Of a DNA stretch of 26,100 bases, positions 9,422 through 26,100 are shown piece by piece (within the stretch, counting starts at the first letter, position 1; every line of letters begins with the position of its first letter). A program made the translations under genes and the position numbers. This stretch comes from a virus: the IMG/VR virus record IMGVR_UViG_3300017750_000097, positions 1 to 26,100 of that record, one strand, 5' to 3'. The notes under the pieces are model-generated. The model ran no database searches and was not told where the DNA came from. It saw only the letters and a program-made list of their open reading frames with translations.

Positions 9422-10657
9422 TTAAATAATATTAATTGTTCCAACCATTGCAACTGTTACTGTTGATTGATATACTAAAGTTGTGTCAGACGGAACCATT
9501 GGAACTATAAACTTTATTATTCCTGTTGATGGAGAACTTATTCCTTCTGTTACAGCAGCACCATCACTTGATACTCTTATTTGCATCGGCTCTGTTGAAT
9601 TAAAAGATGAATTATCAAATATATATGTAAACCCACGATATAAATTAAATACTGGATTATTATCTGTTGCAGTTATTCCTGGCCCAGTAAATCTATATCC
9701 GTTTGTAGAACTAGCAGTGTTTGTAGTATACAACAAAGTTGGTGAAGGAGAAGAGTAATTAGTAACAGGCCCATCACTTATATCTGTTAAAACTTTATGC
9801 CATGCACCTCCATGTGCATAATACAATGCTCCTGTCCCATGCACATGAGCAACCATTCCATGATATGTTGATGCACTAGGCAACTCTCCTTCAACTGAAT
9901 ACACATTAGAATACTTAATTTTATTTGAACCAAAGTCTACATCAACTGTTGGTGTAATAGTAATATCACCAGAAGTATTTGTAATTGCATTACCATTTAC
10001 ATCAAGATTTCCACCAAGCTGAGGAGTAGTATCTTCTACCACATTTGCAATTCTAGCAATTGTTGCAGGAACAAATTTAGATGTTCCATCCCATGCTAGA
10101 ACTTGATTAGATGTAGGAGCAGATGTTGTAATATCTACATCAGACATATTATCAATAGAAATTGTAATAGTGTTTCCAGATGCTGCAATTGTTTTATTTG
10201 TAAGTGTTTCATTTCCAGCTAATGTTGCAAAACTTCCATCACTTAATGCAGAATTGAACTGTGCAGTTGTTCCAATAAGAGAAGTATTACTATCTGCTAA
10301 ATCAAATGTAATTGTATTACTGTCTGTATTAATTACTTTATTTGTGAGAGTAACTGCCCCTACGTCTGTTACAAAATTTCCATCACTCATCGCACTATTA
10401 AATTGTGCAATAGTTCCGGTTACAGATGCTTCGGACAAATTAACCGTAAGTGTATTATTGCTTGAATTGATAGTTTTATTAGTAACAGTTTGAGTTGCAT
10501 CTTTTAATACAACAACATCAGAAGTTAAATTAGTACCATTACCAAGTAATGTATAAAGTTCTGAAAAGTTACTATTTACTTTTGCAGCACCAGCTCTTAG
10601 GTCATCACCAGTGCCGTCATTTGCTGTACTGCCTCTACCAATAGACTGATAAGCCAT
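9422..10657 (-). CDS. Repetitive fibre-like virion protein between gp7 and gp8
   Basis: The 411-residue product starts with MAYQSIGRGSTANDGTGDDL and VNSNFSELY, a common N-terminus in marine phage fibre-type proteins. Residues 58-165 contain three related units of about 46-48 residues, each built on TxTNKxI and, in two, AQFNSAxSDGxF. Then come PTSNQVLAWDGTSKFVPA (about 181-198) and VVEDTTPQLGGNLDVNGN (206-223), modules seen in many phage tail proteins. The C-terminal ~110 residues (YRFTGPG, YRGFTYIFDNS, EPMQIRVS, YQSTVTVAMVGTI) resemble a cupredoxin-like domain in which the usual His and Cys positions appear replaced. A perfect TATAAATA box lies 29 bases upstream. It is probably an accessory baseplate or fibre component. 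Confidence 0.8.
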   Translation of the reverse strand: MAYQSIGRGSTANDGTGDDLRAGAAKVNSNFSELYTLLGNGTNLTSDVVVLKDATQTVTNKTINSSNNTLTVNLSEASVTGTIAQFNSAMSDGNFVTDVGAVTLTNKVINTDSNTITFDLADSNTSLIGTTAQFNSALSDGSFATLAGNETLTNKTIAASGNTITISIDNMSDVDITTSAPTSNQVLAWDGTSKFVPATIARIANVVEDTTPQLGGNLDVNGNAITNTSGDITITPTVDVDFGSNKIKYSNVYSVEGELPSASTYHGMVAHVHGTGALYYAHGGAWHKVLTDISDGPVTNYSSPSPTLLYTTNTASSTNGYRFTGPGITATDNNPVFNLYRGFTYIFDNSSFNSTEPMQIRVSSDGAAVTEGISSPSTGIIKFIVPMVPSDTTLVYQSTVTVAMVGTINII

Positions 10658-10686
10658 ATCTGTCTGCTCCTAAAATTCTTTTATAC

Positions 10687-10694
10687 TATTTATA
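10687..10694 (-). promoter_or_regulatory. T4-type late promoter box TATAAATA
   Basis: An exact minus-strand TATAAATA overlaps the stop codon of the gp7-like gene (10690-10692) and lies 29 bases before ATG 10657. It would start a late transcript for the fibre-like gene, gp8 and genes beyond. Confidence 0.7.
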
Positions 10695-13600
10695 CACTAT
10701 CATCAAACGTAAATGTAGTATTTCTATCGAAAGTAATTCCTAGTTCACTAAACCTTGCAATTGTTGCAGCATCCAAAGTTCTTGACCGTTTTCTTAATAT
10801 TATCTCGCCTGGAGGCGGAACATTTATTTGTGTTGCATATGCTGAATCTGGAATATCAAATATGTCAGACTTTAAAAAACTATTTGATGGAGAAAATATT
10901 ATTTGTTTGATAGAATAATATCCAGAACCTGTTCCACCTAATTCAGTTCCTAATATATATTTTGTGCTAGAATTAGGCTGATAATATCCTTGTTGAAAAA
11001 AGGAATCATCTGTTGTAGTCAATATCGTTTCACCATTCCATTGAATTATATTTGAATATTCCCCACCCGATATTTGAAATCTAAACCAACTGTGTTGTGC
11101 AACTGGAAAAGTTGTTGTACTAAAAATAAACCCCGAATCTGTATTAATATTATCCTCTAAAATTATTTTTCCAGTATCACCATATAAATTTATATCATAC
11201 AAATCACCTTCTTCTAATTTCATATAACCAACATCACATACATCAGTAATTTTTATATCTCTAAATTGTCCTATAGTATAATATTCTCCATCAACTATAC
11301 TTTTATTTAGTTCTGTTATTGATTTTGTTCTATTTAATCCATACCAATTTGATGCAACATCAGAAGAATCTAACCTTGGAACAGCAAATGCATAAATAGG
11401 TAGATTAGCTAATGTTCCATATTTCCTCTTTAATGCAGAGCGTGCTGTCTTCATTTTTACACTTACATCACTTGTAAGTGTAACAGCTCTCAAAATTGCT
11501 TCACTTATGAGTTTACCAGATTGGTCTTCAAAAACTATTCTACCACCAGATTCTAGATTAATACTTTCATTCCTAATATCACTCAATGTTCCTGCAACAT
11601 TTGCAGGAGAGCCAACTACTCCTTGATGTATCGTTCCTAGTCTTCTTCCAAAAACAGAACCAAAAATAATAGCACCAAAGTCTGCGCCTGGAAATCCTCC
11701 AAGAGATGTTGTTGTTCTTGTAATAGAACCAGATACAGAATTAGAAATAATAATTTCACCAAAGACATTCCATCCAGCTGGATGAATTGCTCTCTTTACA
11801 CTATTTCTCCATACATTAATTGATTGGCCAATTTTAACCACATAAGAATAATCTTGATAATAATTACTATCTTGTATTCTGTTTGAAACTTCAGAAATTT
11901 TACTTCTATCAGTTACATATCTTCCAGAGGTTGTAGCAACTGCACCAATCGTTGCTCTTAATGATGCAGGATTAGCAAAATGAACTATTGCAGTTGCACT
12001 AGAGGAAGTTGTTATTTTATCATTTGCAGGAAAACTTGTTGCAGTTGTTGTGACTTGTAATATACTTAATGAAGAATTATAATTTGATATTGTTCCTGTT
12101 GCCCCAGAAACTGAAGTAAAGGAATCACCCACATTAATACTTCCTGTCACATTCTTAACAAACATATTTACGGGAAGAGTGACCGTAGGAACTGTATCAT
12201 AATTTAAACCAAAACTTAGCATTGATACACCATTAACAGAGCCAATGCCTGGGCTTTGATTAGAAATCGCAACTAGAGAAGCACCTGTTCTTCCATCAGC
12301 AGTTTCTTGTATGCTTACCGTTGGAAGACTTGTATATCCTACACCTCTATTTGTTAAAACAACTTTTCTAATTTCATTACTTTCATTTGGAACATTTAAT
12401 CCAGCTGTTCCGAAAGTTCCGTTATTAGGAAAGTTTTCAATAATAATTTCATCAGCAGTTTCTGATAATAGTTTATTGTTTTGATTTTCTTGAAGGTCTA
12501 ATTGAATATTTGTATCAACAGAAAAAGTAGTATTTTCAAATTGTAAAACATCACTGGAACTAACAATACCATTTTCATTTTCATTTACAATTTTTGCATT
12601 TGGATTATCTTCTAAAATTATTGTTCCATTTGTTTCAAGAAGAACTGCGCTAGGGTCATCAACTCCTCCTGTTCCAGTTTCTGCTATTATATTAGAAATA
12701 TCTGTACTAATATTGTCAGGAAAAGCAAAATCTTCTAAAAGAAAAGAGCCTCCTACAATACTTACTTTACCTCTAGCATCTACACCATTTGTATTAAGAT
12801 TATTAAATATAACAGTATCATTTACTTGATAATTCTGTCCACCATTTAAAACTAAAACTTCATCAATTGAACCAGAAGATACATCAGTAACTACACCAGA
12901 ACTTGCTCCATTTCCTATATTTTGAAAAACTAATTTATCATCTCTTACATAATTAAATCCTCCATTTTCTACTTGAACACCTGTGACTATACTTTTAATT
13001 GTAGAGCTAATTTCTAAATCTATAGTTGGGTCTATTCCATATAAAATTTCATCAACAGCAAAACTGCCTTGTATAGATTCTATGTCAACAGTTAATTCAG
13101 TAACTACAGTTGTACCTTCACGAAACCTTGTGACATTTGTAACATATATACTAGATTTTATTTCATCAGTTGATGTTAATGTATAAACTGTTTGGCCCAC
13201 AAGATTAATAAAATCTGATGTACCATTTTCTACAACTCTGATGACTGTATCTTTTGACCACTGCCCATCTGATAATTTTATTATACGTTCTCTTGGATAT
13301 ATTATTTCAGCAGTTTCATCAAAAAGAGCTCTGAAAAATAATTTATGTGCATTTGCAGTTCCTTTTGCACTATATAAATCTTTTATATTTTTTACTAGCT
13401 GTCTTTTTAAAATATCTTCAGCAAGAGTATTTGGTATTGCTTCTAAAAATCTATCTCTAAACTTATCAAGTAAAGAAAAAATAGTTGTGTCTATATCAGA
13501 CAAAGAAATAAATTGCTGTATTCCTTGAACTGGATTTGTAAAATATGAAGTAATAGTTGCTTCTGCATTAGAAGTTTCCCCAACTATCCTCTCACCAATT

Positions 13601-13959
13601 ACAAACCCACTATTAGATGTGATATATAAACTTTGATTAGTATCAAAACTTTGAACTAATACTGTAGCAGTTGCATTTGAAGTTTGTCCACGAATAATCT
13701 CATTATTAATAAAATTACTTGTTGAAGTTTCTAATAATATATTTTCAAAATTTTCATCAAGAACAAAATTTATAGAATTTGTTTCTTGAGTTAAATAGTG
13801 ATTTGTTCCATTAATAACTATCTTAGCAGATTCAAGATACTTATAATATGCTTCAATAAATTCTATGTAAACAGGATGGTCAACTTGTATAAAATCTGGA
13901 AGATTATATTTTACAGTAGACTTTATAGATTTTTTAAATTCTTTATTACTTTCTAACAT
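10690..13959 (-). CDS. 7: Baseplate wedge protein gp7-like
   Basis: The 1089-residue protein carries the core motifs of T4 gp7. HPVYIEFIEAYYKYLES (28-44) resembles the EAYIQYLS region; LYSAKGTANAHKLFFRALFD (195-214) resembles FYSTKGIEASYKFLFKVLYN; and YVVKIGQSINVWRNSVKRA followed by HPAGW (about 700-727) resembles the KSNLPSSRWKSDVIRFVHPVG region. In T4 these lie close together near the C-terminus. Here about 500 mostly beta-type residues with NGGxxY motifs separate the last two, and the large T4 N-terminal domain is absent. In T4, gp7 holds the wedge around gp6 and gp25. Position directly after gp6 supports the assignment. The ribosome site is weak, and 13 bases separate it from gp6. Confidence 0.8.
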   Translation of the reverse strand: MLESNKEFKKSIKSTVKYNLPDFIQVDHPVYIEFIEAYYKYLESAKIVINGTNHYLTQETNSINFVLDENFENILLETSTSNFINNEIIRGQTSNATATVLVQSFDTNQSLYITSNSGFVIGERIVGETSNAEATITSYFTNPVQGIQQFISLSDIDTTIFSLLDKFRDRFLEAIPNTLAEDILKRQLVKNIKDLYSAKGTANAHKLFFRALFDETAEIIYPRERIIKLSDGQWSKDTVIRVVENGTSDFINLVGQTVYTLTSTDEIKSSIYVTNVTRFREGTTVVTELTVDIESIQGSFAVDEILYGIDPTIDLEISSTIKSIVTGVQVENGGFNYVRDDKLVFQNIGNGASSGVVTDVSSGSIDEVLVLNGGQNYQVNDTVIFNNLNTNGVDARGKVSIVGGSFLLEDFAFPDNISTDISNIIAETGTGGVDDPSAVLLETNGTIILEDNPNAKIVNENENGIVSSSDVLQFENTTFSVDTNIQLDLQENQNNKLLSETADEIIIENFPNNGTFGTAGLNVPNESNEIRKVVLTNRGVGYTSLPTVSIQETADGRTGASLVAISNQSPGIGSVNGVSMLSFGLNYDTVPTVTLPVNMFVKNVTGSINVGDSFTSVSGATGTISNYNSSLSILQVTTTATSFPANDKITTSSSATAIVHFANPASLRATIGAVATTSGRYVTDRSKISEVSNRIQDSNYYQDYSYVVKIGQSINVWRNSVKRAIHPAGWNVFGEIIISNSVSGSITRTTTSLGGFPGADFGAIIFGSVFGRRLGTIHQGVVGSPANVAGTLSDIRNESINLESGGRIVFEDQSGKLISEAILRAVTLTSDVSVKMKTARSALKRKYGTLANLPIYAFAVPRLDSSDVASNWYGLNRTKSITELNKSIVDGEYYTIGQFRDIKITDVCDVGYMKLEEGDLYDINLYGDTGKIILEDNINTDSGFIFSTTTFPVAQHSWFRFQISGGEYSNIIQWNGETILTTTDDSFFQQGYYQPNSSTKYILGTELGGTGSGYYSIKQIIFSPSNSFLKSDIFDIPDSAYATQINVPPPGEIILRKRSRTLDAATIARFSELGITFDRNTTFTFDDSV

Positions 13960-13972
13960 TTACAAAATCCAG

Positions 13973-15913
13973 TTAATAAGAAGATGAAGAAGAACTAGAA
14001 CTTGAGCTCGATGATGAAGTGGTTCCTGTTATATAATTTCTTACATCAACAATAGAGTTCGCAAAAAGGTCGCCTTGTGTAATATTTAAAGTTGAAAATA
14101 AACCTGAGAATGAACTTTGTGCTGTTGTTTGTTCAAAATTATCCACAATTCCAGATACAATAAGATTAGATAAATCAATTGTAATAACTTGTTCTCTTGT
14201 AGGAACAACATCGTTTGAATTAGGTATAGCTAAAATTCTAATAGTTCCATCAGTATTAGAAACTGATGTAATATTTACAGAAGATATAACAAGTTTTCCA
14301 GTTAAGTAATCTACTGTTCCAAACAAACTGTTCGTATATGTTTTAGTTGTTCCAACTAAATTATATAATCTAAGATTTCCTTTACCATCATCATCTATAT
14401 AATGGTCTATAGTTGAGCCTGTGACTTTAAAAGGTGTGGATGTTATTACAGAAGTGTGCCCTTCGTGTGGATTAAATAACGCATTATGAAAATTAATTGT
14501 ATATGACTGAGCTGTAGACAAAGTTGGAGAAATAGAAGTTGACATATTTAATCTAATAACATTAGAAAGAATAGAATCATCACAGTTATCAATCAATCTG
14601 CTAACTTCTGAAAATCTAAACATCTTATCAAACATTTCTAAATCACTTACAACATAGCTTGTAATTTTATCTTGCACCCCTTTAACTAATTGTGTAGAAG
14701 TTTTAGAAGTTAAGTTTTCATCATATCTAAAAACAACATCCATTAATACAGAAACTATTTTTGGGTCAACAATCACCGGCTGAGTTGAAATTACAGAATA
14801 ATCTTTTAATGAATCAACTACAATTTGCTTTTGAGATTCAGTCAATCCCGTCCCACTAAAGGGTTTTACCCCTATATAAATTTTTCCATAGTTGGGAGGG
14901 TCATTATCTTCACCTCCCCAAACTTTTACTGATTGAGCATTAGCATAAACTTTTGGAACTAATGTTCTATAATCTTGTGCAGTAACTGCTCGATTTTGAG
15001 ATGCATAATTTAAGGGAGCAAAATATTTTATAGATTCAATTGTTTCTGGAAATGCACCACCTGCTGCAGCAGCAACAGTTGAAACTGTAACATTTGTAAC
15101 ACCATCAACAGCTGTTGTGGTAAAATTGCTAGCACTATTTGGTTTCTCTTCATTACAAATAATATATTCTAATGTAACTATATTACCATCAGATAATTTT
15201 TTACCTATTACCCCATCACCAAAATATATTTCAAAAAAACCATCTTCTACTTCTTGTAAAAAATAAACTTCTGATATATCTGTAACTTGACTTATATCAG
15301 TTGCATGTTTATATGTTCTAATATTAGTATCAGTTGCTGATGTTTTAACGCTAACTGCTAGAGTTGTAGTATCAGCTAAGTTATCTGTTAATAAAAACTT
15401 TTGATTTATATTTTTAGTATTAACAACATATTCTGTTTTTATAGATGTTCCTTCATATATTAAAATATTATTAAATGTTAATACTCCAGCATTTATATTA
15501 GTCGAATAATCTTGATTTGTTATAAACGCAAATGATTGACCGTCAATGTTTGTTTTAAAAACCTGACCTTTTGACATTGATGCTGTTGTTTTTGTTGTAT
15601 TATTCAATGTAACATTTACACTTGCAACAGCAGAGCGAGAAGACCTTGGAACGTAACCTAAAGCTTTAGACTGTGACACCACAGATGAGCGTAAAATTGC
15701 ACTGTCCAAAAAAGATTCATTGACAGCCATGTTTAAATTATATGCTAAATAATGTGTGTTGTAAGCCAAGGTATCTAACAATATATTTAATCCAGAACCT
15801 TCAAAATTATAATCTGTAAAAGTATCTTGACCATTTAAAAATATTTTTAAATTGGTTTTTATGTCATCAAAATCTAATTCTGTAACTCTTAATTTAGATG
15901 AATTAACTGCCAT
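13973..15913 (-). CDS. 6: Baseplate wedge protein gp6 with poly-serine tail
   Basis: The 646-residue protein is close to T4 gp6 in length (660). Its N-terminus (KLRVTELDFDDIKTNLKIFL, then NILLDTLAYNTHYLAYNLNM, then ESFLDSAILRSSVVSQSKALGY) is typical of gp6. In T4, gp6 dimers form the inner ring that joins the six wedges and drives the sheath contraction switch. The region around AVTAQDYRTLVPKVYANAQSVKVWGGEDNDPPNYGKIYI fits the conserved gp6/gpJ-type core. The C-terminus ends in thirteen serines and a tyrosine, written with mixed codons (TCA, TCG, AGC, AGT, TCT), so it is not a simple DNA slippage tract. The gene starts two bases after the gp25 stop. Confidence 0.92.
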   Translation of the reverse strand: MAVNSSKLRVTELDFDDIKTNLKIFLNGQDTFTDYNFEGSGLNILLDTLAYNTHYLAYNLNMAVNESFLDSAILRSSVVSQSKALGYVPRSSRSAVASVNVTLNNTTKTTASMSKGQVFKTNIDGQSFAFITNQDYSTNINAGVLTFNNILIYEGTSIKTEYVVNTKNINQKFLLTDNLADTTTLAVSVKTSATDTNIRTYKHATDISQVTDISEVYFLQEVEDGFFEIYFGDGVIGKKLSDGNIVTLEYIICNEEKPNSASNFTTTAVDGVTNVTVSTVAAAAGGAFPETIESIKYFAPLNYASQNRAVTAQDYRTLVPKVYANAQSVKVWGGEDNDPPNYGKIYIGVKPFSGTGLTESQKQIVVDSLKDYSVISTQPVIVDPKIVSVLMDVVFRYDENLTSKTSTQLVKGVQDKITSYVVSDLEMFDKMFRFSEVSRLIDNCDDSILSNVIRLNMSTSISPTLSTAQSYTINFHNALFNPHEGHTSVITSTPFKVTGSTIDHYIDDDGKGNLRLYNLVGTTKTYTNSLFGTVDYLTGKLVISSVNITSVSNTDGTIRILAIPNSNDVVPTREQVITIDLSNLIVSGIVDNFEQTTAQSSFSGLFSTLNITQGDLFANSIVDVRNYITGTTSSSSSSSSSSSSSY

Positions 15914-19748: not shown

Positions 19749-20378
19749 CTATTCATCCTTATGATTTAAAAAACTTCTACCCATAACTAAATAATCTGCA
19801 CCATGTTCAATTGCATATTCTGGTGTGGAAACTCTAATTTGATCTTGAGAATTAAATACATCATGTCTTATGCCCGGACATATTTTTTTCAATCCATGAG
19901 AATCCGGCACATCTTTTTCTAGCAATATTAAATCTTTAGGTGAACATATCATTCCCCAAAAATTATATTTTTTCATTATCCAGCTGGATCTTTTATAAAC
20001 ATTAAAAATACTTTGCTGAAAAACAGACCGCACATCATTATGTGACCAACTAGTTAAAAAAGTAACACCAAGTAGTTTTATCTTGTCTGCATACTGAGAT
20101 ATTGCTTCAATTGAATCTGCACTATTACTCATGTGAACTGTTATCATTTCAGCTCCAGAATCAATAGCACTTTCAATAACAGAACACATTGTATTTGGTA
20201 TGTCGAACAATTTATAATCACAGAATATTTTATTATATTCTTTACCAATATAAGGATATAATGTATGGTTCATTTTAAACCCATACACTTGATTGCAGTA
20301 TCTTGCAATAATATCTCTTGCCATAGGAGCTGACATATTATCAAGTGCAACTATAATTTTAGATTCATAATCTTTCAT
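19749..20378 (-). CDS. pyrF: Orotidine-5'-phosphate decarboxylase
   Basis: The 209-residue protein catalyses OMP to UMP, the last step of de novo pyrimidine synthesis, in the cytoplasm. All hallmark residues are present: D13 in IVALDN, K35 in GFKMN, the catalytic D54-K56-D59 of CDYKLFDIPNT, the PGIR motif (168-171) and the phosphate-binding GADYLVMGRSF (193-203). Length is slightly below the bacterial norm of about 230-245, with a short loop 110-140 rich in aromatic and basic residues. The start ATG overlaps the MazG-like gene's stop (ATGA), and the 501-residue gene follows at once, so it is expressed with baseplate genes. UMP supply for phage DNA synthesis is the expected role. A related decarboxylase of the same fold (such as KGPDC) is less likely because of DIPNT and PGIR. 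Confidence 0.88.
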   Translation of the reverse strand: MKDYESKIIVALDNMSAPMARDIIARYCNQVYGFKMNHTLYPYIGKEYNKIFCDYKLFDIPNTMCSVIESAIDSGAEMITVHMSNSADSIEAISQYADKIKLLGVTFLTSWSHNDVRSVFQQSIFNVYKRSSWIMKKYNFWGMICSPKDLILLEKDVPDSHGLKKICPGIRHDVFNSQDQIRVSTPEYAIEHGADYLVMGRSFLNHKDE

Positions 20379-21787: not shown

Positions 21788-22077
21788 ATACTGCTATTAA
21801 AATAGAAGAACCACCCACTTGATTTATTGTCTGTAGAATTGTCAATCGTAGTATTATCATTTGCAGATGCAGTAGCTGTTGCAGAAGAATTATCATTCAT
21901 TACAATAGTTGTGTTATCTGCATCATTTGAATTAATATTGTTTGTATTAATGTTTTCAATATTAATATTAATTGGTGGAATCTTTTCCACATGTCTTCCT
22001 CTACTGTCTTCTACACCTTCATAGCTGCAACTTGCAGGAACAATAAACATGAATGCAGTTAAAATTATTTTTTTCAT
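21784..22077 (-). CDS. Putative secreted or lipoprotein, Asn-rich
   Basis: The 97-residue product starts with a signal peptide-like segment (MKKIILTAFMFIVPASC): two lysines, a hydrophobic stretch and a cysteine at 17 preceded by P-A-S, an imperfect lipobox. The mature part is low-complexity, rich in Asn, Thr, Asp and Ser, with INIENINTNNIN, then repeated Asn/Thr/Ala segments, and ends SSGWFFYFNSSI. Such short phage lipoproteins can be outer-membrane spanins or surface exclusion proteins, but neither is shown and no inner-membrane spanin partner was found. AGGAAAAG precedes the ATG. The gene follows the 356-residue gene by ten bases, within its late transcript. Confidence 0.65.
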   Translation of the reverse strand: MKKIILTAFMFIVPASCSYEGVEDSRGRHVEKIPPININIENINTNNINSNDADNTTIVMNDNSSATATASANDNTTIDNSTDNKSSGWFFYFNSSI

Positions 22078-22087
22078 TTTTCTTTTC

Positions 22088-23158
22088 CTATTTTAGTTTG
22101 TCAATTATTTTTGGAAGTAACTGATGAGAATCAGTTGCAATCTTTACTGGAAACTTAAAGTTATTTCTTCTGATTACTTCTTCCAATGAAGGAAGCTCAT
22201 AGTCATCAATGGTAAAGTATGCATCATCTGGGTCACCAGAAAAATGCATGATAAAATCTTCTTCCATATGGTCTTCAATATAGACTGCAACAATTTCAAA
22301 GTTGCCCATCACAAGCTCATCATAAGATTCTGCAACAGAATTCCAACTACTGCTTTGCTTCCTTGCCCAACCTATGTACATCTTTGCAAACACATCCTTG
22401 TGTTTCTTTAAAATCTTTTCTGTACCGTCAATATATTTCTTGATAAAATCTCTTTTAATGCTTCCATTTACCAGAGGAGAAGAAGTGTCTATTGCACGCT
22501 CAACATATTTCTTTTCATCACCAATACTCTTTTTTCCCAATGCAACAAGATTGTTGATAATTGATTTTCTGAATGTTAGCAAGTCCATCCACATTTTTTT
22601 GTATGCAGAACTTCTTACAACATCGTCATAGTCATATGCAAATGCAAGTTCGCTCTTCGGCCCAAGGTCTACTAGTCTTCTTCCTTGCTTGTCTACGATG
22701 CTCATGATGTCTGTGCTGCCTCCTGCATAGACATTTCCTTTAAGAATCGAATAGACACCTCCACCTCCATGCACACCGGATGTCATTCTTCCTTCTTCAT
22801 CTGTAGTATATACAGAAACTTGCTTGCTTTTCTTACTCTGCAACTTCATCAAATTCTCAAGGTTCTCTGGACTGCTTGCATGTATTCCATAGGTCACCAC
22901 TGAACCTACTACACGCTCAATCATTGCCGGAACCAGAGGAAGCTGATATCGAAAATCATCATCTGGAATTAGATAATACATTTTGTCTGCTTCTGGATTG
23001 TCACCTTTCAATGCTGCAAAAACTGATTTCTTTAAAAAGAAGTCATTGATTTCTTTATAAGGCAACGTAAACAAATGGTCAAAAAGGCTGCGAGTCCATT
23101 TAACCTTTTCAGACAAAACAAAATTATTATTATATTCCCAGAAGCTATGCATGTTCAT
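22088..23158 (-). CDS. Unknown 356-residue protein divergent from the transporter
   Basis: ATG 23158 is chosen because a strong AGAGGA site lies just upstream and a late box sits before it; a longer open frame to 23275 would run over the promoter and the transporter gene. The protein starts MNMHSFWEYNNNFVLSEKVKW, has a mixed helical and beta sequence, a glycine loop (VHGGGGVYSILKG, about residues 140-155), helical middle regions rich in Lys (KKYIDGTEKILKKHKDVFAKMYIGWARKQ) and an acidic beta-type end (FSGDPDDAYFTIDDYEL). No membrane segment and no known domain were recognised. It is the first gene of the leftward late transcript; base composition looks less AT-rich than in the baseplate block. 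Confidence 0.8.
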   Translation of the reverse strand: MNMHSFWEYNNNFVLSEKVKWTRSLFDHLFTLPYKEINDFFLKKSVFAALKGDNPEADKMYYLIPDDDFRYQLPLVPAMIERVVGSVVTYGIHASSPENLENLMKLQSKKSKQVSVYTTDEEGRMTSGVHGGGGVYSILKGNVYAGGSTDIMSIVDKQGRRLVDLGPKSELAFAYDYDDVVRSSAYKKMWMDLLTFRKSIINNLVALGKKSIGDEKKYVERAIDTSSPLVNGSIKRDFIKKYIDGTEKILKKHKDVFAKMYIGWARKQSSSWNSVAESYDELVMGNFEIVAVYIEDHMEEDFIMHFSGDPDDAYFTIDDYELPSLEEVIRRNNFKFPVKIATDSHQLLPKIIDKLK

Positions 23159-23174
23159 TATTCCTCTTTTGGAA

Positions 23175-23182
23175 TATTTATA
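23175..23182 (-). promoter_or_regulatory. Late promoter, leftward half of a bidirectional element
   Basis: Minus-strand TATAAATA, exact, lies 16 bases before ATG 23158. It shares the palindrome TATTTATAAATA (23175-23186) with the rightward box. The leader would be only about ten bases and would begin near the AGAGGA ribosome site. Confidence 0.65.
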
Positions 23183-23186
23183 AATA
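23179..23186 (+). promoter_or_regulatory. Late promoter, rightward half of a bidirectional element
   Basis: Plus-strand TATAAATA, exact, lies 31 bases before ATG 23218 of the SbmA/BacA-like gene. It overlaps the leftward box by four bases, so both cannot be occupied at the same moment. Confidence 0.7.
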
Positions 23187-23217
23187 GTGAATCCCCTATA
23201 AAATAAAAAAAGGCAAC

Positions 23218-24201
23218 ATGTTTCGATTCTTTCTTGACGTAAAAAAATACGGATGGTGGAGCATCCTTGGTACATTGATTATCATTGCCGCCATGTGGAG
23301 CACCGTACAACTTGATGTACGGATTAATGAATGGTTTGGTGCATTCTATGATGCACTACAGAAAGCACTGACTACACCAGGCTCAGTGACTCTGACGGAA
23401 TACTATGGATACATGCTGGACTTTGGATACCTTGCAGGAATCTATATTGCAATCAATGTGGTATTCAATGGATTTCTGGTGAATCACTGGACATTCCGAT
23501 GGCGACAGTCCATGGCTGACTACTATATGGAAAACTGGAAACATGCAAGACACATTGAAGGAGCATCCCAGAGAGTGCAAGAGGACACGCTAAAGTTTGC
23601 AAGAATCATGGAAGACTTAGGAATCGGACTGCTGGAATCCGTGCTGATGCTGATTGCTTTCATTCCAATACTCTATGGATTGAGTCAGAGTATTACAGAA
23701 CTTCCCTTTGCTGGAGAGGTAGACCACGGACTAGTTTGGATTGTGATACTGACTGCCCTTGGAGGAACTGCTGTGCTGAGTGCCGTGGGTTCAAAACTCC
23801 CAGGCATTGAGTATGATATTCAAAAGGAAGAAGCTGCATATCGAAAGGAACTGGTACTAGGAGAAAACAGTAAGAGCCGTGCAAGAGTTGCACTTGTGAA
23901 TGAATTGTTTGATGCCGTGAGAACGATTCACTTTCGCTCCTATCTGCATTACTTCTATTTCAATATTGCAAAGTGGAGCTACCTGCAAGGAATGGTGATT
24001 GTGCCTTATGTTGCACTGGGGCCAACCATTATTGCAGGAGGAATCACTCTGGGAATTGTATCACAAACTGTTCGTGCATTTTCAAAGGTTGCAGAAAGCC
24101 TCCAGTATATTATTCGGAGTTGGCTAAAGATTGTGGAACTGGTATCAGTCTATAAACGATTAAGAGAGTTTGAGAAGGAAACCATTACTGCTCAGATTTA
24201 A
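23218..24201 (+). CDS. sbmA: SbmA/BacA-family peptide transporter
   Basis: The 327-residue protein aligns by eye with E. coli SbmA (406 residues) from SbmA position ~85 to near its end. Shared motifs: WWSILGTLII (13-22), FRWRQSMADYYMENW (93-107), HIEGASQRVQEDT (112-124), EAAYRKELVLGE (205-216), FRSYLHYFYFNIA (239-251), IIAGGITLGIVSQ (271-283) and VYKRLREFE (311-319). Hydrophobic segments lie at about 15-33, 66-88, 137-157, 169-191 and 256-283. SbmA/BacA are proton-driven inner-membrane importers of peptides such as microcins and Pro-rich peptides; BacA also affects lipid A and, in mycobacteria, a related ABC protein takes up vitamin B12. The first ~80 residues of SbmA (the first membrane helix) are absent. 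A late promoter and AAAAAAAGG precede the ATG. Codon use (many CTG, GTG) is less AT-rich than its neighbours, suggesting acquisition. Confidence 0.9.
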   Translation: MFRFFLDVKKYGWWSILGTLIIIAAMWSTVQLDVRINEWFGAFYDALQKALTTPGSVTLTEYYGYMLDFGYLAGIYIAINVVFNGFLVNHWTFRWRQSMADYYMENWKHARHIEGASQRVQEDTLKFARIMEDLGIGLLESVLMLIAFIPILYGLSQSITELPFAGEVDHGLVWIVILTALGGTAVLSAVGSKLPGIEYDIQKEEAAYRKELVLGENSKSRARVALVNELFDAVRTIHFRSYLHYFYFNIAKWSYLQGMVIVPYVALGPTIIAGGITLGIVSQTVRAFSKVAESLQYIIRSWLKIVELVSVYKRLREFEKETITAQI

Positions 24202-24217
24202 GGGGGGGTATATATAA

Positions 24218-24225
24218 TATAAATA
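24218..24225 (+). promoter_or_regulatory. T4-type late promoter box TATAAATA
   Basis: An exact plus-strand TATAAATA lies in the 57-base gap between the transporter (stop ending 24201) and the next gene (ATG 24259), 33 bases before the start. It gives the small membrane protein, and anything downstream, its own late transcript. Confidence 0.75.
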
Positions 24226-24258
24226 CTCCTATTATCTATTTAAAAGGAGACATGTCAT

Positions 24259-24480
24259 ATGATAGATAAAGTAGTAGGCTGGATTCGTAGCCTAACAGAA
24301 GTAGGACTTGCAATTATTGCACTAGGAGTTGTTCTTCAGATTATCTTTGGAGCTGCTGTTCCGTTTCTAGGAATGGATATTGTGGGTTCAGTGGTAGAGA
24401 TTGTGAAGCAACTTGGAAGCGAAGGATTGATTGGGCTTGTTGCAATTTGGGTTCTCTGGGGAATCTATACAAAGAAGTGA
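24259..24480 (+). CDS. Small two-helix membrane protein
   Basis: The 73-residue product has two hydrophobic segments, about 13-36 (VGLAIIALGVVLQIIFGAAVPFLG) and 51-69 (LGSEGLIGLVAIWVLWGIY), joined by DIVGSVVEIVKQ. It ends in TKK. I associate this type with small proteins of marine T4-like phages, some found in virions, but the function is unknown; a holin-type role is also conceivable. AAAAGGAGA lies eight bases before ATG 24259; an earlier ATG at 24252 opens only a five-codon frame that overlaps the start. It has its own late promoter and is followed by the candidate structured RNA. It may assist the transporter, which is speculation. Confidence 0.78.
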   Translation: MIDKVVGWIRSLTEVGLAIIALGVVLQIIFGAAVPFLGMDIVGSVVEIVKQLGSEGLIGLVAIWVLWGIYTKK

Positions 24481-24606
24481 ATATAGAAAATAGTGTGTCA
24501 TGGAGGACGCACACATACTTTGAGCACTTAGAATTCTCTTATGTGAGGTAATCTCTAGGTTCCTTAGAATCCGTATAGATTGCAGCCACGGCTCATGTTT
24601 TTGGGG
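24481..24606. other. Gene-free stretch between the membrane protein gene and the RNA candidate
   Basis: No open frame with a ribosome site was seen. A small hairpin GTGTGTC/GACGCAC (24494-24500 with 24507-24513, one G-U pair) lies near the start. A near-repeat CTTAGAAT(T/C)C occurs twice (around 24527 and 24563). No promoter was clear. Confidence 0.5.
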
Positions 24607-24725
24607 GGTATGCTCTTTGCTTTTGCAAACTGTATACCACAGGGTAAAAATACACAGAATGCTCTGAAGGGGCAGCTAGAGTGAATGCCACGGGCCTCCA
24701 GTGTTGCAAAGAGCATACCGTTTTT
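24607..24725 (+). ncRNA. Candidate structured RNA or complex terminator
   Basis: Two perfectly complementary 14-base arms (24607-24620 GGTATGCTCTTTGC and 24706-24719) enclose 85 bases and are followed by five T at 24721-24725. Inside are TGTAT/ATACA (24631-24635 with 24650-24654, extended by ACC/GGT) and a second helix CTGAAGG/CCTCCAG (24664-24670 with 24695-24701, one mismatch) capped by GGCA/TGCC (24671-24674 with 24686-24689). The 5' arm can instead fold locally: GGTAT with ATACC (24634-24638) and TTTGC with GCAAA (24625-24629). The U-run follows only in the plus direction, so RNA from the transporter side is favoured. I could not match it to a known riboswitch, ribozyme, tRNA or 6S RNA. 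Confidence 0.55.
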
Positions 24726-24924
24726 AGTAAACCTCTTCTTCCTCTAGTAGTTCATTACACTCAGCCATGTCCTTGACATCAGCCTCTGACATGTAACTCA
24801 ACGCACAACTCAAAACATGTTCACTAGTCAGCACACCTTCTTCAATCAGTTCTAGAAGTTTATTCGTAGTTGCTCGAGCACTGCTCATATAGTCTCCTGC
24901 TGTTGTAAATTTTAAATCGTTCAT
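24724..24924 (-). CDS. Small acidic unknown protein
   Basis: The 66-residue product starts MNDLKFTTAGDYMSSARATTNKLL and continues LIEEGVLTSEHVLSCALSYMSEADVKDMAECNELLEEEE. This helical, acidic protein with a SYMSEADVKDMAE motif is of a kind I recognise from marine T4-like phages, without known function. ATG 24924 is preferred; the frame also opens at GTG 24948, but that start lies in a hairpin (24940-24976). The ribosome site is weak in both cases. The gene is second in a small leftward unit behind the 43-residue gene and its regulated sigma70 promoter, and its 3' end faces the structured RNA. Confidence 0.75.
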   Translation of the reverse strand: MNDLKFTTAGDYMSSARATTNKLLELIEEGVLTSEHVLSCALSYMSEADVKDMAECNELLEEEEVY

Positions 24925-24939
24925 AATGTACCAGATAAA

Positions 24940-24976
24940 TGAGAGCACCCACTGGTGAGGATTCTGAGCACTCTCA
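24940..24976 (-). promoter_or_regulatory. Leader hairpin before the 66-residue gene
   Basis: In minus-strand RNA the arms at 24966-24976 and 24940-24950 form 11 consecutive pairs, three of them G-U, around a 15-base loop. The opposite strand would have A-C mismatches at those places, so the hairpin suits the minus transcript. It lies between the 43-residue gene and the 66-residue gene. Confidence 0.4.
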
Positions 24977-24984
24977 GGTATTAT

Positions 24985-25116
24985 CTAGACTACTGTAGCC
25001 TTCTGACGTGCTACCTCTGCTTTCAACTCAGCAATCCTTGCCTCAAGTACAACCACATTACGTCTTGCAATCTCAGCTCGTGCTCGTGCTACAGATAATC
25101 GTTTTGAACTTTTCAT
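24985..25116 (-). CDS. 43-residue basic helical protein
   Basis: A short frame from ATG 25116 to TAG 24985 encodes MKSSKRLSVARARAEIARRN followed by VVVLEARIAELKAEVARQKATVV. The whole protein is alanine-, arginine- and leucine/isoleucine-rich with a heptad-like pattern from about residue 8, predicting a single amphipathic helix or coiled coil. GAGAGA lies about eight bases before the ATG, and a near-perfect sigma70 promoter with an overlapping inverted repeat is 70 bases upstream. The combination of ribosome site, promoter and coding-like composition supports a real gene. It could be a small host-takeover or nucleic acid-binding protein; no family is recognised. Confidence 0.65.
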   Translation of the reverse strand: MKSSKRLSVARARAEIARRNVVVLEARIAELKAEVARQKATVV

Positions 25117-25180
25117 ATTGTGAATCTCTCTATTGAGAATTGAAAAATAGTGATTAGTCATTCATCACCACTGAAAGAAA

Positions 25181-25207
25181 CTCTAGTATACCCTATGCAT
25201 ACTAGAG
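25181..25207. promoter_or_regulatory. Operator-like perfect inverted repeat
   Basis: Arms CTCTAGTAT (25181-25189) and ATACTAGAG (25199-25207) are exact inverted copies nine bases apart, centred about two helical half-turns from each other. The repeat covers the whole spacer and most of the -10 element of the promoter at 25185-25213, the classic position for a repressor. Confidence 0.55.
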
Positions 25208-25213
25208 TGTCAA
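25185..25213 (-). promoter_or_regulatory. Sigma70-type promoter TTGACA-17-TATACT
   Basis: On the minus strand TTGACA (25208-25213) and TATACT (25185-25190) are 17 bases apart. Transcription would begin near 25178 and enter the 43-residue gene and then the 66-residue gene. This is typical of strong early phage promoters read by host RNA polymerase. Confidence 0.8.
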
Positions 25214-25252
25214 GACTTTTTTTCACATTCAGCCCAGGGGCTAAGCATGCTT

Positions 25253-25528
25253 TTAGTCTACTGCATGATACCTTACATGAGTAGTCAGCCCCTTGTCACT
25301 CCATTCCTTGGCTACTGAATCGGGGTTTCCATTAACCTCAGTGTAACCCACTGTTGCTTCATAACCCCACACAGGGTAGGTCTTAGCACTCCAGCCGTAC
25401 CCATAGGTTTTCCACCCTGTTCTGTACTTAGAAATTAGGTGTTTCTCAACTCCAGCTTTGAGCAGTGGAGATTTAGTCTTGGAAGAAACAGTGATGGAAT
25501 AGAAGTCAAACGTGTTAAGGGCACTCAT
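25253..25528 (-). CDS. Unknown 91-residue protein
   Basis: The product begins MSALNTFDFYSITVSSKTKS and is beta-type with many aromatic residues: YRTGWKTYGYGWSAKTYPVWGYEATVGYTEVNG, then SVAKEWSDKGLTTHVRYHAVD. No membrane segment, cysteine pair or catalytic motif is clear, and I do not recognise the family. AGAGA lies about seven bases before ATG 25528, and a TTGACA-17-TATACT promoter is 45 bases upstream, so it is probably an early gene that acts on the host. A short AGCC/GGCT hairpin after the stop lacks a T-run and is unlikely to end transcription. Confidence 0.75.
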   Translation of the reverse strand: MSALNTFDFYSITVSSKTKSPLLKAGVEKHLISKYRTGWKTYGYGWSAKTYPVWGYEATVGYTEVNGNPDSVAKEWSDKGLTTHVRYHAVD

Positions 25529-25572
25529 AATGATCTCTGTAGAAGTTCTTGTTACTCACTCAATACAAGAGT

Positions 25573-25601
25573 AGTATACCAAGTGCTGGAGTCAATGTCA
25601 A
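25573..25601 (-). promoter_or_regulatory. Sigma70-type promoter TTGACA-17-TATACT
   Basis: On the minus strand TTGACA (25596-25601) and TATACT (25573-25578) are 17 bases apart. Transcription would begin near 25566 and reach ATG 25528 after a leader of about 38 bases. Its hexamers and spacing equal those of the promoter at 25185-25213, but it lacks that promoter's inverted repeat. Confidence 0.8.
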
Positions 25602-25640
25602 GAAAAAAATTCAAGAAAAATAAAAAAGTTTTGTGTCATT

Positions 25641-25705
25641 TCTGTGTCACAAATCAAGAAGTGTACCACGTTACATCTCTGTGACATGTGTCAAAAAGTG
25701 TACCA
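25641..25705. repeat. Two 28-base direct repeats, 37-base period
   Basis: Copies at 25641-25668 and 25678-25705 match at 22 of 28 positions by eye, starting TCTGTG and ending AAGTGTACCA with one variable base just before. The second contains the inverted pair TGACA/TGTCA. A shorter relative, AGTGTGCCA, occurs near 25739. Possible protein-binding sites. Confidence 0.55.
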
Positions 25706-25790
25706 TTTCAGTTTGGTATGGCATTTGCAAATACAATTAGTGTGCCAAAGAAAAAACTTGAAAAATTTCGTGGGCACGGGTAAAGATGTC

Positions 25791-25820
25791 ATGAGCATCC
25801 GTAGAATTCTATGAGCATCC
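25791..25820. repeat. Direct repeat ATGAGCATCC x2 flanking AGAATTCT
   Basis: Two exact 10-base copies (25791-25800, 25811-25820) are separated by ten bases that include the palindrome AGAATTCT. A period of 20 bases puts them on nearly the same face of the helix. Confidence 0.5.
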
Positions 25821-25866
25821 AGTGTTCTCTAGCCTTTAAACATATATCATAACATAAAAACATTTT

Positions 25867-26100
25867 CTACGCATCTTCTATTTTATACCCATGCATACTC
25901 AGAAACTTTTCAAAGGAAATATTTTTTGTATACTTACTTTGATACAAAAGATGTAATGCAGTGCTCACAATTTCTGATGGATACTCCTTACGTTTAATCG
26001 AATACCCAGAAGCTTCATCCTGTGAAAAGTGTTTTTCAATTATCTCCTTTGCATAGTAATAATCCCTATCTTTTCTTATTTCATTCTTCAGTTCAATACA
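25867..26100 (-). CDS. C-terminal part of an unknown protein, 5' end outside the window
   Basis: The minus-strand frame is open from base 26100 to TAG at 25867-25869 and gives 77 residues. They include ELKNEIRKDRDYYYAKEIIE, then KHFSQDEASGYSIKRKEYPSE, and end FEKFLSMHGYKIEDA. The sequence is mainly helical and charged with many Tyr and Lys, and codon choice looks normal for the window. No family is recognised from this fragment. It ends just left of the 338-base control region and lies in the same orientation as the other small early-type genes. Confidence 0.65.
   Translation of the reverse strand, partial: CIELKNEIRKDRDYYYAKEIIEKHFSQDEASGYSIKRKEYPSEIVSTALHLLYQSKYTKNISFEKFLSMHGYKIEDA

Follow-up and report, generated by a model that had tools for sequence, protein, structure and literature searches.

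In a contig of a marine T4-like phage we found an intact gene of the SbmA/BacA family, and we see about an even chance that its product is a complete minimal SbmA-like peptide transporter (SLiPT) that works as a proton-coupled nutrient importer, with a substrate that we infer. The gene lies in the window, by which we mean the whole stretch of 26,100 nucleotides analysed here (positions 1 to 26,100 of IMG/VR record IMGVR_UViG_3300017750_000097). The family, the six-helix core fold, the full glutamate ladder, the phage setting, the recurrence among viral contigs and purifying selection in relatives are results of the computation; the gene itself is described as follows.

23218 to 24201, plus strand: sbmA-like gene of 327 aa with an ATG start, a short SLiPT without the N-terminal TM0 region and with the TM1-6 core complete.

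The reading frame is intact over its 327 codons, and a sequence check confirmed the family motifs that the earlier note had quoted from it. The SbmA/BacA-like identity proposed in that note also held, no other transporter family giving a better match: the best Pfam family is SbmA_BacA (PF05992; E 3.8e-128, 427.9 bits against a cut-off of 24, residues 9-321 on positions 2-313 of a profile of 315), and ABC_membrane_2 is a weaker match (E 2.5e-11). The top match in the PDB is SbmA (7p34; E 3.7e-93, query residues 2-321 on chain residues 74-392), with Rv1819c (6tqe) far lower at E 1.4e-8. A Pfam scan found no ATPase domain in it or in nine other window proteins, and an ABC transporter of the YddA/BclA kind was ruled out by this result together with the presence of equivalents of SbmA E203 and E287. 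The protein passes the NCBIfam model PRK12369, 'putative transporter' (403 bits against a cut-off of 385, covering 1-321 of 326 positions), and falls below the cut-off of the SbmA model PRK11098 (397 bits against 492), scores that place it formally in a short sister type and not in SbmA sensu stricto. Relatives in the viral loci L004, L032 and L040 exceed the PRK12369 cut-off as well; for L004 and L040 the PRK11098 score is the slightly higher of the two, yet it stays under that model's cut-off.

We built an AlphaFold2 monomer model of the window protein from 40 aligned sequences of viral and bacterial relatives; its mean pLDDT is 85.9. Comparison of such a model with SbmA had been proposed earlier as a check, and it puts the TM1-6 core in the SbmA fold: the best Foldseek fit of the monomer is the SbmA cryo-EM chain 9g3g (TM 0.91 by query length, 2.5 A over 319 columns), and 6tqe follows at TM 0.76 and 21% identity. 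The viral structures in BFVD contained no close SLiPT, their top match being an ABC transporter at 12% identity. As described in the accessible part of PMC13316013, the SbmA protomer has eight helices (TM0a, TM0b and TM1-6), its proton pathway is formed by six glutamates (E193, E203, E269, E276, E287 and E378), its gates include Y368, L349 and Y285, and TM0a/b change minimally between transport states.

23581 to 24138, plus strand: span of the six glutamate-ladder codons, placed by alignment to SbmA, with the ladder list from the accessible part of PMC13316013.

The proton-coupling glutamates, which the earlier note had singled out, are all there: in the alignment E122, E132, E198, E205, E216 and E307 of the window protein correspond, in this order, to the six ladder residues of SbmA. 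Each ladder position is a glutamate in 50-52 of 52 viral rows and in all 80 bacterial rows (the best 80 of 586 relatives); where it is missing, the viral gene is partial and the alignment has a gap. The gate residues Y368 (a Tyr here too) and L349 are retained, and Y285 is replaced by Leu214. The Y368 position is Phe in 10 of the 52 viral SLiPT rows and in none of the 80 bacterial rows (best 80 of 586). The window protein begins at SbmA residue 74, so TM0a and TM0b are absent and the eight-helix arrangement is incomplete. A long form, the E. coli plasmid SbmA of locus L134, has two hydrophobic segments (5-35 and 50-81) ahead of this start point, which in our reading are TM0a and TM0b. The missing TM0 bears on whether the protein is SbmA proper, not on its fold or mechanism, and it is typical of the short type.

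By comparison of the sequences, the short form is normal, being shared by many bacteria, and the phage did not shorten SbmA. The earlier note had read a loss of the first ~80 residues as a compact version; about 75 residues are absent, but the best 80 of the 586 bacterial loci encoding a relative, which are top matches to a short query and not a random sample, are equally short. All 80 measure 329-335 aa from the aligned start, 78 have an in-frame stop no more than 10 codons upstream of it, and the short form has an NCBIfam model of its own, PRK12369. Wider bacterial samples include both short and long lengths, with the long forms in more distant relatives. In a 91-row tree the long SbmA/BacA forms make up two separate clades, one of 20 rows that includes E. 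coli plasmid SbmA (98/98) and one of 4 rows (100/98), and the phage, SAR11 and HIMB30-like proteins fall outside both. This tree left out 27 of the 51 viral loci (near copies or partial genes), 60 of the best 80 of 586 bacterial loci, rows below 38% identity or of ABC length, the duplicates L139 and L169, and the long branches L143, L151, L154 and L198. A truncated SbmA was rejected on the short form of those 80 bacterial loci and on the separate long clades.

The window record carries T4-like baseplate genes, one gp6-like (E 8.7e-176) and one gp5-like (E 1.3e-84), and the closest relatives of its gp6 are in Methylophilales phage Melnitz (51.6%) and the Pelagibacter phages Mosig (48.0%) and HTVC008M (45.7%). 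The T4-like assignment rests on these two genes, since L002, the window phage's own record, is a fragment that has no match to gp32, gp23 or terminase. That the gene is phage-encoded, as the earlier note supposed while naming a misassembled bacterial segment as the danger, is upheld by its joint with phage genes in three further IMG/VR contigs: L002 (99.97% identical to the window over 12.6 kb), L003 (99.93% over 10.7 kb) and L200, at whose end the first 75 residues of an sbmA-like gene (98.7% identical) stand with the neighbouring phage genes. On these three contigs we rejected a chimera or host contamination. The genes on either side are the following.

22088 to 23158, minus strand: divergent phage gene of about 356 aa and unknown function, which shares the promoter palindrome described below and has relatives in contigs L202-L204.
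24259 to 24480, plus strand: hydrophobic phage protein of 73 aa and unknown function, downstream of sbmA, with relatives in viral stretches.

The relatives of the divergent gene are 62-64% identical and lie in L202, L203 and L204. About 3.1 kb ahead of the gene is covered in L202 and L203, and sbmA is absent there, so the site is variable; L204 has only 109 bases at this place. A relative of the 73-aa protein is encoded in 220 viral stretches, the best 80 of which were kept as loci, and the protein has no Pfam or PHROG family. INPHARED gave no match for it, which a low-complexity filter may explain, nor for the divergent gene, and Rfam gave none in the window. One of the PHROG matches is to family 11436, of unknown function (E 5.8e-13). 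The contig ends 1.9 kb beyond the sbmA-like gene. Its GC3 is 0.41 and that of the divergent gene 0.33, against 0.10-0.17 for seven large genes, structural or neighbouring, and because GC3 is raised in this way the data suggest that 22000-26100 is a stretch of newer, recently acquired genes. GC over 22000-26100 is 0.37-0.43 against 0.27-0.39 elsewhere in the window, with GC3 of 0.30-0.46 in five genes there or adjoining. Further from sbmA, on the minus strand at 19749-20378, the window has an orotidine-5'-phosphate decarboxylase-like gene (98 bits against the TIGR01740 pyrF cut-off of 92.3, and under the cut-off of PRK00230); it has a relative in L013 at 667-1284 (108.8 bits), and the region shows DNA similarity to L008 and L013.

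The gene recurs. We scanned 2.9 million viral contigs for exact peptide patterns taken from the window protein, a method that finds near relatives only, and obtained 51 viral loci at 57-100% identity, two of which are the window phage and 49 of which are further contigs at 57-80%. All 51 are free of internal stops; six of them run off the end of their contig. Marker tests covered 50 carrier records for gp32 and terminase (L003 left out), 31 for gp23, and 14 control genomes. T4 gp32 was present in 28/50 carrier records and gp23 in 4/31, against 0/14 controls in each case; terminase was present in 4/50, with 6/14 controls positive too, and at least one of the three in 30/50. The 20 records without any of these T4 markers include L002 and the large contigs L022 and L029, and many are short. 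Distances to gp32 were computed for 27 loci (L026 left out): sbmA stands 0.6-1.7 kb behind the gp32 match on the same strand in 16, ahead of gp32 by 2.5 kb in 4, and ahead by 4.6 to 50 kb in 7. In L004 a gp55-type late sigma factor is followed by a gp47-type (SbcD-like) gene and then by sbmA, with a gp46-type (SbcC-like) gene 2.6 kb downstream. L032, a contig of 376 kb with gp23 and terminase matches, has its SLiPT near YqiJ-like and flotillin genes (10001-15067). The gene is an auxiliary gene in the sense of a bacterial-type gene stably kept in phage genomes.

The only INPHARED matches of the sbmA-like gene number four: two are short records without annotation, and two belong to the mislabelled MD-2021a assembly. 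We did not take these 'phage' matches as evidence. The MD-2021a record L133 (CAKLQH020000002.1, 'Acinetobacter phage MD-2021a') has gatA, gatB, threonine dehydratase and housekeeping genes around sbmA and looks like a piece of bacterial chromosome. We found no report of a phage-encoded SbmA in the open-access literature searched; in term searches, SbmA and BacA had zero occurrences in PMC7029224 (pelagimyophages) and PMC9004378 (Melnitz), and the words 'phage' and 'virus' were absent from the accessible part of PMC12003926.

In the 91-row tree the window gene falls in a clade of 19 rows (100/99), 16 of them viral; the 3 bacterial ones come from HIMB30, a gammaproteobacterial MAG and a Burkholderiaceae MAG. 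A second viral clade (100/100) holds 8 viral rows, and L032 groups with SAR11 rows (95/92). The AU test rejected a single viral origin when all 25 viral rows were taken together (p 1.4e-12) and again when L032 was left out and the two main groups were joined (p 1.4e-5). Because of this rejection phages probably acquired the gene at least twice, which is the simpler reading of the tree and not proof, since a viral clade would likewise be split by transfer from phage to bacteria. The 16 viral rows around the window were not rejected as one group (AU p 0.116); inside the clade, transfer may have run in either direction. The window gene was probably acquired from a proteobacterium. Relatives at 73-75% occur in 4 of 194 sampled genomes of HIMB30's order and in 1 of 399 from the order to which the Burkholderiaceae MAG belongs. 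Related phage copies are under purifying selection, which was measured on relatives, 4 of the 20 phage pairs, including both with the window gene, being saturated at synonymous sites. Fourteen of the 16 unsaturated pairs gave dN/dS of 0.02-0.09 (with less certainty for 4 of them, whose dS is >1), one close pair gave 0.30, and one pair gave 0 with no amino-acid change.

The motif TATAAATA, which we take to be the T4 late-promoter core consensus, occurs 8 times in the window where 4.2 are expected, and 8 was reached in 6 of 100 shuffles. Five of the 8 sites lie 10-45 nt ahead of a start codon (P 6.7e-8, with the distance range set after the sites were seen). The signals around sbmA are these.

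23175 to 23186, no strand assigned: perfect palindrome TATTTATAAATA of 12 nt, made of back-to-back T4-late-type motifs, the plus copy at 23179-23186 (sbmA) and the minus copy at 23175-23182 (divergent gene).
23208 to 23213, plus strand: ribosome-binding-like AAAAGG in the sequence ahead of the sbmA ATG.
24218 to 24225, plus strand: second TATAAATA late-promoter motif, 34 nt before the 73-aa gene.

The plus copy of TATAAATA ends 32 nt before the sbmA start, and the ATG of the divergent gene at 23158 is 17 nt from the motif. The palindrome could fire T4-type late transcription both ways. Judged by its sequence, sbmA of the window phage probably has a late promoter. The late expression that the earlier note envisaged is thus a probable prediction for this phage, but it is not general: of the 51 viral loci, 47 include the gene start, and among these an exact TATAAATA within 90 nt upstream was found only in L002 and L003, which are the window phage, and we rejected late expression as common to the carrier phages. 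In all five of L024-L028 a sigma-70-like promoter (TTGACT-17-TATAAT) stands instead, 27 nt before the ATG, and the timing is therefore predicted to be phage-specific. An exact TATAAATA lies within the same distance upstream in 3 of 80 bacterial loci (best 80 of 586).

The neighbours of sbmA bear on its cargo. In L028 (7248-13222) it stands between a xanthine/uracil permease (PF00860, E 1.8e-52) and a PLP-dependent decarboxylase; T4-like gp59 and gp32 and a class II (Asp/Lys/Asn-type) tRNA-synthetase-like protein are also nearby. In L022 (1604-7130) PurA, PurT and a PnrA-like nucleoside/substrate-binding protein are near the gene, which adjoins matches to a PHROG 'ferredoxin' family (E 5.6e-102) and to phage-type adenylosuccinate synthetase (E 2e-123). 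L013 (11621-13843) has ribulose-phosphate 3-epimerase and phage-type adenylosuccinate synthetase near sbmA, L033 and L040 have sugar and oxygenase genes, and the three neighbours scanned in L031 gave a DUF932 match alone. On the Vibrio plasmids L137 (3305-12780) and L138 (3283-12714) a short SLiPT stands between a pitrilysin/insulinase-family peptidase and, in this order, ExbB, ExbD, TonB and FhuF, alongside a TonB-dependent receptor and adjoining parA/parB. This cluster of outer-membrane uptake and peptide-cutting genes is a candidate peptide or siderophore import system, and its gene order is as expected for importing pieces of peptide cargo. The bacterial loci L059 of SAR11 (NDUS4-type subunit, GlpX and RecJ-like genes) and L053 of HIMB30 (phosphoglucose isomerase, a dehydrogenase and a hydrolase) are uninformative on peptides. 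Among the roles that had been suggested earlier, nutrient uptake fits the neighbourhoods best; for a change of envelope lipids or the blocking of competing phages the computational analysis found nothing in favour. From the phage and Vibrio neighbourhoods we therefore infer import of a peptide or peptide-like nutrient, with a cofactor or siderophore as the main rival cargo. Two copies of the protein would form a homodimer in the host inner membrane, where protons moving down the glutamate ladder would drive alternating access and carry periplasmic peptides or peptide-like compounds into the cytoplasm without ATP. Its transcription in the window phage is probably late, together with that of the virion genes, and import would then supply amino acids, nitrogen or a bound cofactor while virions are made.

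Several observations speak against this reading: the short type is named only 'putative transporter', the Y285 gate residue is Leu214, the SAR11 and HIMB30 neighbours say nothing on peptides, predicted timing differs between phages, and with fhuF in the Vibrio cluster iron or siderophore import is possible. A carrier with the same SLiPT mechanism and a non-peptide or mixed solute, such as a cobalamin-like cofactor, a peptide siderophore or another hydrophilic metabolite, is rather unlikely, though the likeliest of the alternatives. Its precedent is the ABC relative Rv1819c, which according to the accessible parts of PMC10960864 and PMC13316013 imports cobalamin and unrelated hydrophilic compounds, and the Vibrio short forms adjoin TonB-system genes and fhuF; Rv1819c, however, belongs to the ATP-driven branch, whereas the phage protein has a complete SLiPT ladder, and the peptidase of the Vibrio cluster points to peptides. 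The same uptake might protect the infected cell, if antimicrobial peptides were pulled from periplasm to cytosol and degraded before they damaged the membrane, and several pathogens and symbionts need SbmA/BacA or BclA to survive host peptides (accessible part of PMC12003926). We regard protection as distinctly unlikely, since uptake by SbmA can also sensitise a cell, and no peptide-defence gene was recognised among the scanned neighbours of phage sbmA, many of which are without a known family. Still less probable is a manipulation of the host other than feeding, through bacteriocin sensitivity, a change of the proton gradient that times lysis, or an envelope change against other phages. The late-promoter motif of the window phage and a ladder that marks a proton-coupled carrier would suit it, but in other phages the gene adjoins genes for replication or recombination, or has a sigma-70-like promoter, which is unlike a lysis-timing gene, and the scan of neighbours turned up no recognisable exclusion or lysis gene.

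The remaining alternatives take the gene to be of no use to the phage or no part of it. A recently captured bacterial gene carried as a non-adaptive passenger would account for the GC3 of 0.41 against 0.10-0.17 in large structural genes and for the absence of sbmA at the site in L202 and L203; we think this very improbable in view of the 51 loci free of internal stops, a dN/dS that stays under 0.1 for 15 of the 16 unsaturated pairs among related phage copies, a similar position behind gp32 in 16 loci and the rejection of a single viral origin. That a bacterial fragment was misassembled into a phage contig, or misclassified as one, is scarcely credible: the gene does stand near the contig end (1.9 kb away), where GC is higher, and its INPHARED matches are only unannotated or mislabelled records, but the joint recurs in three other contigs, phage genes stand on both sides, and relatives lie among T4 core genes.

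An intact copy of the same carrier is maintained in several phage lineages, which makes the biology more interesting than a single odd gene would. The recurrence of an intact SbmA-family importer in marine T4-like phages suggests that the phages cause infected cells to import peptides or similar small molecules. We put forward more tentatively, at somewhat less than an even chance, that such phages have at least twice independently made a TM0-less SLiPT a standard infection gene, so that dying cells take up dissolved peptides whose nitrogen and carbon pass into virions; the marine peptide cycle would then have a branch under viral control. If nutrient import is the right reading, phages steer which organic nutrients an infected cell imports and not only what it makes, with a carrier that needs a proton gradient only; marine virus-host models would gain a phage-encoded peptide importer, and selection for such uptake genes in virus genomes would be explained.

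Among known systems, the short bacterial proteins of PRK12369 / NF009036 have the same length, start point and complete ladder as the window protein, which passes their model's cut-off; identity is 73-75% to HIMB30 and its relatives, 71-73% to the Burkholderiaceae MAG, 62-65% to SAR11 and 52% to Vibrio. Unlike them, the window gene is carried by a phage, has a late-type promoter ahead of it and sits in a mostly viral clade (16 viral and 3 bacterial rows). SbmA and BacA of E. coli and rhizobia (PDB 7p34, 9g3d-9g3g) share with it the TM1-6 core, the six ladder glutamates, the gates Y368 and L349 and the lack of an ATPase, whereas the window protein, at 47% identity to E. coli SbmA, has no TM0 region, has Y285 replaced and falls below the SbmA equivalog cut-off. 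A role of TM0 as a scaffold in transport is only suggested in the accessible part of PMC13316013, and natural TM0-less SLiPTs are test material for whether that scaffold is needed. The type IV ABC importers YddA, BclA and Rv1819c have the transmembrane fold in common with the window protein (6tqe) but carry an ATPase, and YddA is described in the accessible part of PMC13316013 as being without equivalents of E203 and E287, both of which the window protein has. The xanthine/uracil permease and the PnrA-like binding protein are also uptake functions found beside a phage SLiPT, but they belong to different families.
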